Assembly: GCF_030586465.1 (NCBI RefSeq)
Contig: NZ_JAUQYP010000001.1
Span: 1,095,400-1,159,399 of the forward strand
Origin: Actinotalea lenta
GTDB lineage: Bacteria; Actinomycetota; Actinomycetes; Actinomycetales; Cellulomonadaceae
Reading direction: 5' to 3'
DNA length: 64,000 nt
In this document: piece after piece, positions 20,767 to 56,083 of the stretch
Layout: each line of letters opens with the position of its first letter
Numbering within the stretch: position 1 is the stretch's first letter
Translations under genes and position numbers: made by a program
The notes under the pieces: model-generated
Seen by the model: the letters and a program-made list of their open reading frames with translations, nothing else
Told to the model about the DNA's origin: nothing
Database searches by the model: none

Positions 20767-22446
20767 TCAGCCCTGGTCGAGGACCAGGTCGGGGAGGGCG
20801 GCCCGCAGGGTCAGCATCCCGCCGGACAGGTTGGCCGAGTCGAAGCCCTCCTGGACCAGCACGCGGTGGGCCAGGTAGGACCGGAAACCGCTCGCGCAGT
20901 GCACGCGTACCGGCCGGCCGGCGGCTTCCTCCCGGATCTCCTCGAGGCGCTCGCGGACCTCGGTGTGCGGCACGTTGAGCGCCTTGGGCAGGTGCCCCCG
21001 GCGGTACTCGCCGTGCGAGCGCACGTCCAGGATCAGCGCGGTGTCGAGCACCTCGTCGAGCTGGTGCGGGTACCAGAGCGTGAGGGTTCCGTCGAGCACG
21101 TTCTGCGCGACCATGCCCGCCATGTTGACCGCGTCCTTGGCGGATCCGTACGGCGGCGCGTAGGCCAGCTCGAGCTCGGCGACGTCGTCCATGGTCATCC
21201 CCGCGGCCAGCGCCGTGGCGAACACGTCGATCCGCTTGTCCACGCCCGCACGCCCCACGGCTTGGGCGCCCAGCAGCCGGCCGTCGGGGGCGAACGTCAC
21301 GGTCATGTGCATCTGCTCGGAGCCGGGGAAGTAGCCCGCGTGGTGCCCGGGGTGCGTGTGCACCACGTGGTGCTCGATGCCGGCACGCCTCAGCTGGGCC
21401 TGGGAGGCGCCCGTGACGGCGGCGGTCAGGCCGAACACGCGCACGACGGCGGTGCCGATCACGGGGCGCGCGAGCGTGGCCTCGGTCAGCCGACCCATGA
21501 TCGAGTCGGCGGCGCGGCGGCCCTGGCGGTTCGCCGGGCCGGCAAGCGGGACGGCGCCGAGCACACCGGTCACGCCGTGCCGCACCGCGGTCGCGTCGCC
21601 GACCGCCCAGATGTGCGGGTCGGAGGTGCGCTGGGCGGTGTCCACCACGATGGCGCCCGACTCGGTCAGCTCGAGGCCGGCGCCGGCGGCCAGGTGGCTG
21701 TCCGGGCGCACGCCCACGGACAGCACGACGATGTCGGCGGGCAGCACCGTCCCGTCGGAGAGCGCGACCTCGACCGCGTGGTCGGTGTCCCGCGTCGGCG
21801 TGATGCCGGTCGCGGCCACCCCGACGTGGGTGGTGATGCCGTGCCCGGTCAGCTCGTCGTCCAGCAGGCTCGCGAGCTCGTCGTCGAGGGGTGGTAGGAC
21901 GTGCGGCGCGAGGTCGACCAGGTCCACGTCGAGCCCCCGCTCGCGCAGCGCCTCGGCCGCCTCCAGGCCGATGAACCCGGCGCCGAGCACCACGGCGCGG
22001 TCTGCCGAGTCGGTGAGCAGGGTGCGGATCGCATCGGCGTCCGGCACGGTCCGCAGGGTGTGCACCTGCGGCAGGTCGAGCCCGTCGATGGGTGGCCGGA
22101 TCGCGGTGGCGCCGGGCGCGAGGACCAGCGCGTCGTAGTCGATGACGTCGGTCCCGTCGTGCGGGAGCTGGACGGTGACCTGCTTGGTGGCCGGGTCGAT
22201 CGCGAGGACCTCGTGGCCGGTGCGCACATCCAGGTGCAGCGCGGCGTGCAACGACGCCGGGGTCTGCAGCAGCAGGGACGCGCGGTCGGCGATCTCGCCA
22301 CCGACGTGGTAGGGCAGGCCGCAGTTGGCGAACGACACGTAGTCGCCGCGCTCCAGGACGATGATCTCGGCGTCCTCGTCCAGGCGCCGTGCCCTGGCTG
22401 CTGCGCTCATCCCTCCGGCGACCCCGCCGACGACAACGATCCTCAT
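20767..22446 (-). CDS. CoA-disulfide reductase-rhodanese fusion (FAD-dependent)
   Basis: 559-residue flavoprotein. N-terminal FAD/NAD(P) pyridine-disulfide oxidoreductase with GGVAGG and the single redox Cys42 in SFANCGLPYH (CoADR type), NADH site VVLGAGFIGLEAAE, dimerisation domain to about 450, then a rhodanese domain with catalytic VHCASGFRS. Such CoADR-RHD proteins reduce CoA persulfide or polysulfide. I start at ATG 22446 (GAGGA upstream) instead of an ATG 26 codons earlier that reaches the operator. It lies behind a palindromic operator and near a CstR-like repressor, fitting reactive-sulfur detoxification. Confidence 0.88.
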   Translation of the reverse strand: MRIVVVGGVAGGMSAAARARRLDEDAEIIVLERGDYVSFANCGLPYHVGGEIADRASLLLQTPASLHAALHLDVRTGHEVLAIDPATKQVTVQLPHDGTDVIDYDALVLAPGATAIRPPIDGLDLPQVHTLRTVPDADAIRTLLTDSADRAVVLGAGFIGLEAAEALRERGLDVDLVDLAPHVLPPLDDELASLLDDELTGHGITTHVGVAATGITPTRDTDHAVEVALSDGTVLPADIVVLSVGVRPDSHLAAGAGLELTESGAIVVDTAQRTSDPHIWAVGDATAVRHGVTGVLGAVPLAGPANRQGRRAADSIMGRLTEATLARPVIGTAVVRVFGLTAAVTGASQAQLRRAGIEHHVVHTHPGHHAGYFPGSEQMHMTVTFAPDGRLLGAQAVGRAGVDKRIDVFATALAAGMTMDDVAELELAYAPPYGSAKDAVNMAGMVAQNVLDGTLTLWYPHQLDEVLDTALILDVRSHGEYRRGHLPKALNVPHTEVRERLEEIREEAAGRPVRVHCASGFRSYLAHRVLVQEGFDSANLSGGMLTLRAALPDLVLDQG

Positions 22447-22522: not shown

Positions 22523-22542
22523 ATATACCCCCGGGGGTATAT
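22523..22542. promoter_or_regulatory. Perfect 20-bp palindromic operator upstream of CoADR-rhodanese
   Basis: ATATACCCCCGGGGGTATAT is fully self-complementary. AT-flanked C/G tracts of this kind are typical CsoR-family operators. A close relative lies at 23898-23913. Confidence 0.75.
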
Positions 22543-22596
22543 TCCTGCTAGGACCTCCGACTCACCCGGGCGGCGCCGGTGGGTGCGGTGTCCCGC

Positions 22597-23226
22597 TCAG
22601 CGCGTGGCGGCCGGGCGTTGCGCCACCACGACGGCGTCCAGGGCGGCCCGTTCGGCGCCCTCGACCTCGCGGGGGAGCACCTCGGCGCGCACCACGTCGA
22701 GACCGCTCTCGTGCAGCGTGTGCGTCACGACGTCCAGGTCGGTGAGGACCTCGGGCCGCTGGGGACCCCCGGTCCCGTGGTGGAGGTTGCTGCGGTCGTG
22801 CCCCACGAGCAGCAGAAGGCCGCCGGGCGCCACGGCTGACGCGGATCGCTCCAGGGTCGCGACCGCCTGAGCGGGGAGCAGGTGCACGTAGGCGAGCAGG
22901 ACCAGGTCCGCGCTGCGCGGCTCCGGCACGTCCTGGCTGACGTCGGCGACCGACCAGCGCACCTGGCCGGGCAGCACCCCGTCGGCGGCGAGCTGGTCGG
23001 CGCGGGCCCGGCCGCGGGCGATCGCCACCGCGGAGAAGTCCACCGCGTCCACCTGCCAGCCCAGTCCCGCCAGCCAGATCGCGTGCCGGCCGTCGCCGCA
23101 CGCGACATCCCGCGCGCGGCCGGGGGTCAAGGGCGCGACGAGGTCACGGACGGTCGCGTTGGGGCCCGCGGGCCATGGCGAGCCGGCGGCGTAGCGTTCG
23201 TCCCAGCGGGCCGCCGGGTTGCTCAC
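22597..23226 (-). CDS. Class I SAM-dependent methyltransferase
   Basis: 209-residue Rossmann methyltransferase. SAM motif I is RDVACGDGRHAIWLA, with the acidic residue in VDAVDFS and motif LVLLAYVHLLP. It resembles the TehB/thiopurine-methyltransferase-like group that methylates tellurite, selenium or small thiols. The GTG start overlaps the repressor stop (GTGA), so it is cotranscribed with a sulfur-type regulator. Thiol or chalcogen methylation is an inference from that context. Confidence 0.8.
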   Translation of the reverse strand: MSNPAARWDERYAAGSPWPAGPNATVRDLVAPLTPGRARDVACGDGRHAIWLAGLGWQVDAVDFSAVAIARGRARADQLAADGVLPGQVRWSVADVSQDVPEPRSADLVLLAYVHLLPAQAVATLERSASAVAPGGLLLLVGHDRSNLHHGTGGPQRPEVLTDLDVVTHTLHESGLDVVRAEVLPREVEGAERAALDAVVVAQRPAATR

Positions 23227-23486
23227 GCGAGCGACAGGAAGAGCTTCTGCAGCTTCGCCCGGTCGACGCCGGCCTCCTCGTCCCCCCGCGTGATGCACTG
23301 CTCGAGGCCGGAGGCGATGATGACGAAGCCCGCCCGGTCCAGGGCCTTGGACGCCGCCGACAGCTGGGTCACCACGTCGGCGCAGTCCGCGCCGGACTCC
23401 AGCAGCTTGACGATGCCGCCGATCTGACCCTGGGCGCGCCGCAGGCGGTGGATGACCGCGGTCATCTCCTCCGGGTCGAGCTGCAT
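23223..23486 (-). CDS. CsoR-family repressor lacking the copper-ligand His (CstR-like persulfide sensor)
   Basis: 87-residue all-helical regulator of the CsoR/RcnR family (DUF156). The two family cysteines are present at 35 (SGADCADV) and 64 (LEQCI), spaced 29 apart as in copper CsoR and in CstR. The copper-ligand His expected four residues before the second Cys is Gly60. Loss of that His with both Cys kept is the CstR pattern, where the pair senses persulfides. Neighbouring rhodanese genes support this. The ATG at 23486 follows GGGAGG. Confidence 0.88.
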   Translation of the reverse strand: MQLDPEEMTAVIHRLRRAQGQIGGIVKLLESGADCADVVTQLSAASKALDRAGFVIIASGLEQCITRGDEEAGVDRAKLQKLFLSLA

Positions 23487-23539
23487 GCGGGCCTCCCGTG
23501 CCGGTTCGCCGGACTTGGCCGACGGCTGCTTCGCCACCG

Positions 23540-23896
23540 CTATCTCACCGCCCCGCCCGCCATCCGCCAGGCGGCGAGGCCGCCCGAGAGGCTGGTGGCC
23601 TGGTACCCCATGGATCGTAGCTGGGCAGCAGCGGTCCTGGACCGGGACCCTGAGGCGCACATCACCACCACAGGCACGTCCTGCTTGAGGCGCCGGGCGT
23701 CGTTGGTGAGCCGACCCATCGGGATGTGCCGGGCCTGGGGGGCGTGCCCCGAACGCCACTCGGACTGCTCGCGCACGTCGACGAGCTGGGCGCCGTCCGC
23801 GACCAGCTCCAGCGCGCGGTCCACTCGCACGTTCTTGGGCAGGGCGTCGGGGTCGCGGTTCAGGAGGCGGTCGAGAAAGGAAGCCATGCCGGCCAT
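23540..23896 (-). CDS. Rhodanese-like sulfurtransferase
   Basis: 118-residue single-domain rhodanese with active-site Cys80 in MCASGSRSR. No signal peptide, so cytoplasmic. It probably moves or detoxifies sulfane sulfur with the CoADR-rhodanese encoded downstream. First gene of the rhodanese-repressor-methyltransferase transcript. Its ATG at 23896 is two bases from the operator palindrome, so the G-tract of the operator may also act as ribosome binding site; a second ATG at 23887 is possible. Confidence 0.87.
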   Translation of the reverse strand: MAGMASFLDRLLNRDPDALPKNVRVDRALELVADGAQLVDVREQSEWRSGHAPQARHIPMGRLTNDARRLKQDVPVVVMCASGSRSRTAAAQLRSMGYQATSLSGGLAAWRMAGGAVR

Positions 23897-23897
23897 G

Positions 23898-23913
23898 ATA
23901 CCCCCAGGGGTAT
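23898..23913. promoter_or_regulatory. Palindromic CsoR/CstR-type operator at the rhodanese start
   Basis: ATACCCCCAGGGGTAT has 7-bp inverted arms around a 2-base centre and matches the core of 22523-22542. It sits between divergent rhodanese and nadC, where bound repressor would cover the rhodanese start. Confidence 0.75.
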
Positions 23914-23955: not shown

Positions 23956-24861
23956 ATGCAGCCTCCCACCGCGGACCAGCATCCCACGCCTCCCGACGCT
24001 GCGTGGCTCGCGCGCACGGTCGAGGTCGCCCTCGACGAAGACCTGGGACCTGCGCCAGGGCGGGACGTCACCACGCAGGCCACGATCCCGCCCGAGCGGC
24101 GTGGCACGGCGGACCTGGCGGCCCGCGCGGACGGCGTCGTCGCTGGCCTCGTGGTGGTCCAGCCGGTGCTCGACGCCGTGGCCGCGCGACTCGACGCCGA
24201 GCGTGCCACCGTGCGTGCCCTGGTGCCGGACGGGGCGCGCGTCATCGCGGGGGACGTGGTCGCGGTCCTCGAGGGGCCGATCCAGGTCCTGCTGGTCGCC
24301 GAGCGCACGCTGCTCAACCTGGTGTGCCGGGCCTCCGGGGTGGCCACCCACACGCGCCGCTGGGCCGACGCGCTCGCGGGCACCGGGGCGACGGTGCTGG
24401 ACACCCGCAAGACCACCCCCGGGCTGCGCGCCCTGGAGAAGTACGCGGTCCGCTGCGGGGGCGGGACCAACAAGCGGATGGGCCTGTACGACGTCGCCAT
24501 GGTCAAGGACAACCACGTCGCCGCGGCGGGGTCGGTCGCCGCCGCCGTGCGGGCGGTACGCGAGCGGTTCGACGTCCCGATCCAGGTGGAGGCGGACACG
24601 CTCGACCAGGCCATGGAGGCGCTCGACGCCGGCGCCGACTTCCTGCTCCTGGACAACATGCCGACCCGCGTGCTCACCGAGGTCGTCGCCGCGGTCCGTG
24701 CGCGTGAGCCCGAGGTCGGCCGGGTCGAGCTGGAGGCGACCGGCAACCTGACGCTGGACCGGGCCCGCGAGGTGGCCGCCACGGGTGTCGACCATCTGTC
24801 CGTCGGTGGCCTGACGCACTCCTCGCCGATCCTGGACCTCGCGCTCGACCTGGTCGGTTGA
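23956..24861 (+). CDS. nadC: Quinolinate phosphoribosyltransferase (carboxylating)
   Basis: Converts quinolinate and PRPP to nicotinate mononucleotide. 301 residues. LDTRKTTPGLRALEKYAV and GGGTNKRMGLYDVAMVKDNH carry the substrate-binding Arg/Lys/His residues. Probably leaderless. It is separated from nadB by the inverted sulfur module, though the two are normally neighbours. Confidence 0.96.
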   Translation: MQPPTADQHPTPPDAAWLARTVEVALDEDLGPAPGRDVTTQATIPPERRGTADLAARADGVVAGLVVVQPVLDAVAARLDAERATVRALVPDGARVIAGDVVAVLEGPIQVLLVAERTLLNLVCRASGVATHTRRWADALAGTGATVLDTRKTTPGLRALEKYAVRCGGGTNKRMGLYDVAMVKDNHVAAAGSVAAAVRAVRERFDVPIQVEADTLDQAMEALDAGADFLLLDNMPTRVLTEVVAAVRAREPEVGRVELEATGNLTLDRAREVAATGVDHLSVGGLTHSSPILDLALDLVG

Positions 24862-55090: not shown

Positions 55091-56083
55091 GTGACCACCA
55101 CCCCGACCCGATCCCCCCAGGGGGCTGAGGGGCTGCGCAGGTCGCGACGGTCCGGCGTCGGCAGCGGGCTGTTCGCCGGCCTCTCCGTCGGCTCGGGCGC
55201 GCTGATCCTCGTCGTCCTCGCCGCGGTCGCCGCCTTCCTGCTCATCCAGGCGTGGCCCGCGTTGACGAGCGCCCCCGCCACCCTGCACGAGTCCATCGCC
55301 TGGTTCCCCGACAAGACCTCGCTGGTGTCCTTCGTCGGCCCCCTGGTCTTCGGCACGCTGCTCGCCGCCGCGATCGCCCTGGTGATCGCCACACCGATCG
55401 CGGTGGGGATCGCGCTCTTCATCTCGCACTACGCACCCCGGCGCTTCGCGGCGGGGCTGGGCTACCTGATCGACCTGCTCGCGGCGATCCCCAGCGTGGT
55501 CTACGGCCTGTGGGGGGTCCGGGTCCTGGTGGGCCAGAACGGTATCGGCCAGCCCATCCAGCAGGTCCTGCACGACGTGCTCGGGTTCATCCCGCTGTTC
55601 GCCGGGACACCGGCCCGGCCGGCTCGCAGCCTGTTCATCGCCGGCATGGTGCTCGCGGTGATGATCCTGCCGATCATCACCGCTGTCGCGCGCGAGGTGT
55701 TCCTGCAGACCCCCCGCCTGCACGAGGAGGCGTCGCTGGCCCTGGGCGCGACCCGCTGGGAGATGATCCGGATGGCCGTGCTGCCCTTCGGGCGGTCCGG
55801 CGTGGTGTCCGCCGCGATGCTGGGCCTCGGCCGGGCGCTGGGGGAGACGATGGCCGTGCTGATGATCCTCTCGCCGGGCTTCACCTACAGCTGGCACATC
55901 CTCGAGGCGGGCAAGCAGCAGACCATCGCCGCGAACATCGCCGCGCAGTTCCCCGAGGCGAACCCGCTGGGCGTCAACACCCTGATCGCCACGGGCCTCG
56001 CGCTGTTCGTCATCACGCTGGCCGTCAACATGCTCGCGCGCTGGATCGTCTCGCGCCGGGCCGAGTTCTCGGGAGCCAACTGA
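55091..56083 (+). CDS. pstC: Phosphate ABC permease PstC
   Basis: 330-residue membrane subunit with six helices; EEASLALGATRWEMIRMAVL is the ATPase-docking loop and GRALGETMAVLM a PstC signature. GTG 55091 follows GGAG. pstA begins 1 bp after its stop. Confidence 0.94.
   Translation: MTTTPTRSPQGAEGLRRSRRSGVGSGLFAGLSVGSGALILVVLAAVAAFLLIQAWPALTSAPATLHESIAWFPDKTSLVSFVGPLVFGTLLAAAIALVIATPIAVGIALFISHYAPRRFAAGLGYLIDLLAAIPSVVYGLWGVRVLVGQNGIGQPIQQVLHDVLGFIPLFAGTPARPARSLFIAGMVLAVMILPIITAVAREVFLQTPRLHEEASLALGATRWEMIRMAVLPFGRSGVVSAAMLGLGRALGETMAVLMILSPGFTYSWHILEAGKQQTIAANIAAQFPEANPLGVNTLIATGLALFVITLAVNMLARWIVSRRAEFSGAN

Follow-up and report, generated by a model that had tools for sequence, protein, structure and literature searches.

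The PF02583 family of small repressors holds both persulfide sensors (CstR) and copper sensors (CsoR), and a 64,000-nucleotide stretch of Actinotalea lenta DNA, analysed here at its full length (the window), encodes one member of it. Two near-identical palindromes lie in the same locus, in front of a gene for a coenzyme A (CoA)-disulfide/CoA-persulfide reductase-rhodanese fusion (CoADR-rhodanese) and in front of the repressor's own transcript; the locus thus raises the question of which signal these palindromes answer to, and of how many genes answer with them. Our analysis suggests that a persulfide (sulfane-sulfur) regulon is scattered over the genome and has its autoregulated core in the window; in it, a CstR-like repressor would act on operators of the form TAC-X8-GTA that are separated from CsoR operators by their spacer; we put the probability of this reading at roughly 0.85.

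The first palindrome, operator 1, reads ATACCCCCGGGGGTAT (22525..22540) within the longer palindrome ATATACCCCCGGGGGTATAT (22523-22542) and lies upstream of the CoADR-rhodanese gene. Operator 2, ATACCCCCAGGGGTAT (23898..23913), fronts both the rhodanese-CstR-methyltransferase transcript and the divergent nadC; neither operator is assigned a strand. Both match the pattern ATACCCCNNGGGGTAT (ATACCCC-NN-GGGGTAT) exactly and belong to the class TAC-X8-GTA, which we call N2; the class TAC-X9-GTA, with one extra spacer base, is called N3. No other exact match occurs in the window. The third match, at 55111, has three mismatches, and since 0.87 matches are expected by chance at this stringency and three were reached in 7/100 shuffles, only the exact window matches are meaningful. 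A search of the host genome (3.31 Mb in three contigs), which the initial annotation had proposed as a check, returned eight exact sites, the two window copies among them, six with one mismatch and four with two. The reversed-pattern control gave 0 sites in the whole genome, and 20 simulated 3.3-Mb genomes with the dinucleotide composition of the window held 0 exact and 0 one-mismatch sites, with a mean of 2.4 and a maximum of 5 two-mismatch sites. The exact and one-mismatch sites are far above chance; the two-mismatch sites (4 against 2.4 expected) are not and were set aside, including one before a SudB/NfnA-like gene.

The genes at these sites, called by codon composition and likeness to ribosome sites and named via Pfam and NCBIfam, are consistent with a common theme. 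At all eight exact sites the called start codon is no more than about 80 bases from the palindrome, and a sulfur or thiol-redox gene adjoins each of them. Beyond the window, the exact sites front a thioredoxin; a YgaP-like transmembrane protein (PF11127), with an acylphosphatase in divergent orientation; a rhodanese with a PDO/CstB-type metallo-beta-lactamase-rhodanese behind it; a further rhodanese, at a locus where a one-mismatch site fronts a second thioredoxin; an exported rhodanese, with a divergent glycerophosphodiester phosphodiesterase; and a DsbD/CcdA protein with, next in line, a redoxin-rhodanese fusion (loci L108 to L113, in that order). Some of the divergent genes, such as the acylphosphatase and the phosphodiesterase, have no plain sulfur role. 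The predicted regulon is dispersed, and the 'compact reactive-sulfur module' of the initial annotation gives way to a set with six further exact sites, all outside the window and beside genes of sulfur or thiol-redox function; its description of the two palindromes, with their coordinates and the genes behind them, stands. Counterparts of operator 1 precede CoADR in relatives of the same genus and in other genera, and an exact counterpart of operator 2 occupies the same position in four relatives (L019, L020, L022 and L024).

The repressor itself (23223..23486, minus strand, 87 aa with Met1 at 23486; PF02583 at 1.3e-20, 74 bits against a cut-off of 22.8) carries Cys35 and Cys64 and has Gly60 at the position of the copper-ligand His. 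The two cysteines are invariant in 35/35 alignment rows, the window protein included. Written as the residues at the three positions, the fingerprints in our 49-row tree are C-G-C in 28 rows, C-H-C in 18, C-N-C in two (the CstR reference and one relative) and C-T-C in one, the C-H-C rows being the X9-linked CsoRs and the CsoR and InrS references. Among the loci examined for spacing below, C-G-C is found in 78/80 CstR loci (the others being one CSC and one CTC) and C-H-C in 14/14 CsoR loci. The window protein groups with Streptococcus pneumoniae CstR, apart from copper CsoR and InrS, with support of 94/81, slightly under the mark set by the tool, and with long branches and a single CstR reference. 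The best solved structures by sequence are 7mq1 and 7mq3 (the chain table of PDB 7mq1-3 says csoR, the titles S. pneumoniae CstR), and an AlphaFold2 model of the repressor (mean pLDDT 82.6) finds 7mq3 as its top Foldseek match (E 7e-4); CsoR and InrS follow closely, and the fold does not separate CstR from CsoR. Among the repressor matches listed, the nearest come from an Actinomycetales metagenome-assembled genome (99%), Actinotalea subterranea (89%) and A. fermentans (83%). On this evidence the protein very probably works like, and is, a persulfide sensor of the CstR/ScCsoR type. The initial annotation had read it as a His-less repressor of CstR-like pattern, with Cys35, Gly60 and Cys64, and the sequence, the fingerprint, the grouping with S. 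pneumoniae CstR and the sulfur-gene context all agree; the clustering with copper CsoR that it had named as the contrary outcome does not appear in the tree.

Could the palindromes nevertheless be CsoR operators of a copper or other-metal regulon, with the sulfur genes secondary to it? The protein belongs to the same family, it has a weak NCBIfam RicR match (45 bits, cut-off 175), and the S. lividans CsoR consensus ATATACCCCTNAGGGGTATAT is nearly identical to the host pattern (excerpt of PMC3902906). Because the CsoR operator is the same sequence with one more spacer base, the palindrome alone cannot tell sulfur from copper control; the earlier suggestion that the palindromes and the His-less protein together indicate a persulfide regulon holds at its core, while the palindrome by itself is neutral towards copper. 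Against a copper regulon, the ligand His is replaced by Gly; the other PF02583-family member of the host genome is a C-H-C CsoR, with an HMA-domain (CopZ-like) gene alongside and a promoter site of its own that we read as TAC-X9-GTA; X8 palindromes stand at sulfur genes and X9 palindromes with copper genes; and no copper-class gene is found at the 81 N2 sites fetched from the host family. Given the His-less protein and the separate CsoR with its X9 site, we reject the copper regulon, which we consider very improbable.

A split by spacer is hinted at by published operators: that of ScCsoR (SCO0620 of S. coelicolor), ATACC-n6-GGTAT, spans 16 bp and is of the X8 form (excerpt of PMC7533328), and copper CsoR operators have TACX9GTA in common (excerpt of PMC3902906). 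Sulfur or copper class was assigned to a site where a tblastn match to a reference protein (E 1e-5) had its start between -40 and +400 bases; the reference proteins were drawn from N2 and N3 loci, so that the gene-class counts measure separation, not discovery, and the fetched sites form a subset of the full set. The 81 fetched family X8 sites (89 less 8 tRNA-Gln matches) comprise 71 of sulfur class, seven with only a small Cys-rich gene and three others, one SQR-like and one glutaredoxin among them; by their position, the 71 putative operators are placed where CstR might control sulfur-class genes. Of the 47 X9 sites (57 less 10 tRNA-Gln matches), 40 have a copper-class gene, two of them with a weak flavoprotein match as well, three have an MFS transporter and four are other.

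The same split appears when loci are picked by protein alone. In the best 80 of 585 CstR loci, TACCC-N4-GGGTA (X8) occurs 112 times, in 70 of the loci, against three X9 sites and no more than two sites for each of the remaining spacings between 0 and 13 (shuffles 0.1-0.65). Fourteen plasmid CsoR loci, chosen from 40 listed (92 records matched), hold 12 X9 sites in nine loci and one X8 site. The Fisher test for CstR against CsoR spacing gives 6e-9, a value that is approximate since L342, L350 and L358 have both spacings. In Bacillota we examined five plasmid loci from 40 listed (111 matched), all of them CstR loci, so that X9 for Bacillota CsoR rests on an excerpt of PMC3902906. They are the annotated cstR-cstA-cstB locus of Staphylococcus equorum and four loci assigned to CstR by similarity, fingerprint and rhodanese neighbours (4/4); all five proteins are C-N-C. 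With a relaxed TACC/GGTA core they carry 12 X8 sites (5/5 loci) and 0 X9 sites (shuffle means 0.32 and 0.27), and the strict core gives seven X8 matches in 3/5 loci and none at another spacing. That the spacer base separates CstR from CsoR operators well, with real exceptions, is well supported by sequence in the family and in the protein-picked loci; we propose that the base itself may cause the two repressors to discriminate.

The palindromes also follow the repressor from genome to genome. Of 101 family genomes, 77 encode a CstR-like protein (match to the window protein at E < 1e-12), and 63 of these carry an exact N2 site, against one of the 24 that lack such a protein (P 3.8e-12, related genomes being counted separately); for N3 sites the counts are 53/77 and 15/24 (P 0.62). 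With tRNA-Gln matches removed by hand the N3 counts become 50/77 and 13/24, and the N2 categories do not change. Eleven genera hold both CstR-bearing and CstR-less genomes; in ten of them the bearers have N2 sites and the others none, except for one g19 genome. Among 246 genomes at the level of the phylum, X8 is found in 28/68 with a strong CstR-model match and in 4/178 others, and X9 in 22/68 and 47/178, by a hand tally at E <= 1e-17 in which the fingerprints of the 68 are unchecked and tRNA-Gln matches are still included (2/31 fetched N2 sites). We note separately that one of the 246 genomes, G179 (2.9 Mb), has 22 exact X8 palindromes, the most of any searched; the only locus seen there (L242) shows no convincing gene at its X8 site.

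Several observations weigh against our reading, in addition to the tree support given above. Of the 77 CstR-bearing family genomes, 14 have no exact N2 site; six of these have a one-mismatch site beside CstR and eight have none within two mismatches, six of the eight belonging to one genus (g9). Thirteen of the 14 retain CoADR beside CstR, and in such lineages the operator may have changed. The genome G070 carries an exact N2 site and yields no CstR-like match. Both X8 and X9 are absent from 9/80 protein-picked CstR loci, and 5/14 CsoR loci have neither with that core. Two CstR loci from Demequina (L342 and L350) and one from Enemella (L343) carry X9 at their own promoter, and the CsoR locus L358 carries X8 beside X9. 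At phylum level only 14 of 29 X8 loci are of sulfur class, although two of the 15 'other' loci, L245 (SQR-like, 123 bits, below cut-off) and L227 (TauE), proved sulfur-related on scanning; the 28 X9 loci divide into 12 copper, five thioredoxin and 11 other.

These exceptions bear most directly on the proposal that both paralogues read both spacings, the difference in spacer being a relic of ancestry that does not serve specificity. The cores are identical but for one base, the four exceptional loci L342, L343, L350 and L358 fit it, and X9 palindromes precede thioredoxin genes in one phylum family (f26; L268, L269 and L272-L274), where the CstR-model matches are weak (1e-15 to 1e-17) and the spacings are perhaps assigned differently. 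The strong split in the protein-picked Actinomycetota loci, the X8 sites of the Bacillota CstR loci, and the CstR-less relatives that have no N2 sites in ten of the 11 mixed genera all argue the other way, and we regard shared reading of the two spacings as rather unlikely, if the most serious of the alternatives. The X9-bearing CstR loci are in any case natural exceptions that should be useful for examining a spacer rule.

Our data, read alongside the characterized relatives, suggest a model for how a CstR-like repressor would govern this regulon; we infer DNA binding, repression and persulfide as the signal from S. aureus CstR and ScCsoR. In its reduced state the tetramer would bind the promoter-near ATACCCC-NN-GGGGTAT operators and repress the genes behind them. 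A rise in persulfide or polysulfide would lead to persulfidation of Cys35, which might then link to Cys64 of the neighbouring protomer, in the manner of S. aureus CstR, or remain in the persulfide form, as happens with ScCsoR of S. coelicolor. The modified repressor would leave the DNA and free its targets: the CoADR-rhodanese to reduce CoA-persulfide; the rhodaneses, and perhaps TusA and DsrE2, to move sulfane sulfur; the PDO-rhodanese to oxidise it; and the thioredoxins, CcdA and perhaps sulfhydrogenases to reduce it. The CsoR paralogue in the same cell would be kept apart by its spacer, with CstR at TAC-X8-GTA and CsoR at TAC-X9-GTA.

The sensor might instead respond mainly to another thiol-reactive signal, such as nitroxyl (HNO), electrophiles or disulfide stress, with persulfide as one of several inducers. 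The S. aureus cst operon is induced by HNO via CstR (excerpt of PMC5480029), and the regulon here includes thioredoxin and a TrxB-like gene. Many of the targets are, however, enzymes of sulfane sulfur (rhodaneses, PDO, CoADR), and polysulfide releases ScCsoR (excerpt of PMC7533328); we judge a different principal signal to be quite unlikely and retain persulfide in the model.

The one-mismatch sites point to a wider reach. One fronts a TrxB-like reductase with thioredoxin behind it (trxBA, L114) and another a short-chain dehydrogenase (L116). On contig C2, a one-mismatch site fronts a cluster of TusA, an FlpD/MvhD-like protein, DsrE2 and an HdrA/GltD-like flavoprotein (L117, 3453-7001); a second TusA-domain open reading frame (ORF) lies upstream of the site, and the cluster resembles a sulfur-carrier/heterodisulfide-reductase system in an actinobacterium. 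Two more one-mismatch sites belong to [NiFe] hydrogenase operons (L115, 2359-6489, and L118, 2241-6799) and lie about 105-123 bp upstream of the first hydrogenase subunit match. The best NCBIfam matches of the L118 large and small subunits and of the L115 beta subunit are sulfhydrogenase models, and the first match of the L115 gamma subunit is a cytochrome-c3-hydrogenase gamma model, all of them under the cut-offs. Across the family, an N2 site with at most one mismatch lies upstream of 3/12 hydB-like loci, the two of the host and one other (G099, L198, at -121), and no such site was found at the other nine; the sample comprised 13 matches in 11 family genomes, one short fragment (G033) being left out. 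This result weakens the case for control of sulfhydrogenases by X8 operators, for which the evidence is weak. We regard as evenly balanced the broader proposition that a one-bp spacer code is general in at least two phyla and that persulfide control extends to [NiFe] sulfhydrogenases and the TusA-DsrE2-HdrA-like cluster, which would link sulfane-sulfur sensing to polysulfide and H2 metabolism.

Small Cys-rich proteins of about 55-75 aa (CxxCGKTTWAGCGxH type) lie close behind the X8 operator at 19 of the 89 fetched family N2 sites (for example L152, 1580-1762, plus strand; L054, 1295-1462, minus; L131, 1339-1506, minus) and at none of 57 family X9 sites. The members searched gave no match in Pfam (three), NCBIfam (one) or PHROGs (two). 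Their position makes them a probable new member of the persulfide regulon. In a relative of the same genus (L143), the gene behind an exact site encodes a protein that matches sulfide-quinone reductase weakly (49.5 bits, cut-off 525).

One class of false operator matches has a simple origin. The 5' end of tRNA-Gln(CTG), GGGGTATGGTGTAATTGG, forms half the palindrome, and matches of this kind were recognized at L148 (1483-1555), L149 (1562-1634), L151, L153, L225, L226, L079, L093 and L169; the host genome has two N3 sites, one of which is also of this kind. An apparent 'switching' of gamma-glutamyltransferase between N2 and N3 was rejected on the same ground, as the matches overlap the 5' end of the tRNA-Gln(CTG) in front of that gene.

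Within the window, the CoADR-rhodanese (20767..22446, minus strand) has 559 aa from the chosen start, in an ORF that extends to 22524. It combines PF07992 (Pyr_redox_2, 1.6e-61) with PF00581 (Rhodanese, 2e-12), and residues 2-553 of 559 match its best solved structure, 8a56 (named 'Coenzyme A-persulfide reductase'), at E 1.1e-148; the match to the CoA-disulfide reductase model TIGR03385 reaches 412.5 bits, under the cut-off of 578.8. With a CoADR module, a C-terminal rhodanese and full-length likeness to a solved CoA-persulfide reductase, the predicted protein fits that enzyme. The repressor transcript begins with a single-domain rhodanese (23540..23896, minus strand; PF00581, 1.4e-17) and continues past the repressor into a class I S-adenosylmethionine methyltransferase (22597..23226, minus strand; PF13649, 1.1e-12), whose likely GTG start overlaps the repressor stop codon. 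The methyltransferase has weak TehB-like matches below the NCBIfam cut-off, and that it methylates thiols or chalcogens is no more than a guess. The initial annotation rightly placed it in the transcript, but it adjoins CstR in only 8/50 loci, the window locus counted; it is a variable member, and we reject it as a general part of the core. The divergent nadC (23956..24861, plus strand; PF01729, 4.4e-55) is possibly a bystander to operator 2.

If it is true that one spacer base separates paralogous repressors, CstR and CsoR would form a very clean system for studying how operator geometry sets specificity, and the rule would allow persulfide and copper regulons to be told apart from DNA alone. 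Here it led from two palindromes to a sulfur regulon within one genome, and it predicts new members, namely the Cys-rich family of about 60 residues and, less surely, the hydrogenase operons. No statement of the X8/X9 rule was found in the literature searched; the S. aureus papers likeliest to compare CstR and CsoR operators lie outside the scope of that search, and the novelty of the rule is not established.

A comparison with known systems places the host regulon among relatives on two sides. The copper CsoR of S. lividans shares with the host CstR its fold and the operator core TACCCC/GGGGTA, and differs in being a Cu(I) sensor with TAC-X9-GTA operators at copZA and csoR (excerpt of PMC3902906). 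In Thermus thermophilus, the CsoR-family regulator TTHA1953 likewise regulates sulfur genes through scattered sites distant from its own locus, with a different consensus, TACNNTACNNNNGTANNGTA, and with Sox targets (excerpt of PMC10318464). The Staphylococcus cst system has in common with the host a His-less dithiol repressor (C31, C60) and targets of the CstB-type PDO and rhodanese type, and the plasmid cst locus of S. equorum also has an X8 site. In S. aureus, CstR is believed to govern just one operon (excerpt of PMC5480029), whereas the host set is dispersed and its main linked target is the CoADR-rhodanese. The initial annotation had set the locus apart from S. aureus cst, and it is true that no cstA, cstB or sqr lies under cstR in the window, the genome as a whole not having been searched for CstA or SQR; a PDO/CstB-type metallo-beta-lactamase-rhodanese nevertheless follows an exact X8 site elsewhere, and the likeness to cst is therefore greater than the window shows. 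Closer in its target is the cst-like operon of Enterococcus faecalis, from a different phylum, whose CstR has a CoA-persulfide reductase-rhodanese and two sulfurtransferases as its targets; the excerpt of PMC9405070 names no PDO or thioredoxin targets. ScCsoR resembles the host protein in being an actinobacterial, CsoR-like protein with two Cys and an X8 operator, and its targets are a type III PDO, a rhodanese, a TauE and its own gene. The excerpt of PMC7533328 calls its site similar to copper CsoR sites and draws no contrast of spacing. Its circuit comprises four clustered genes, whereas the host has eight dispersed exact sites and adds CoADR, thioredoxin and CcdA; judged by its sites and genes, the host regulon is a larger, new member of the CstR/ScCsoR kind.

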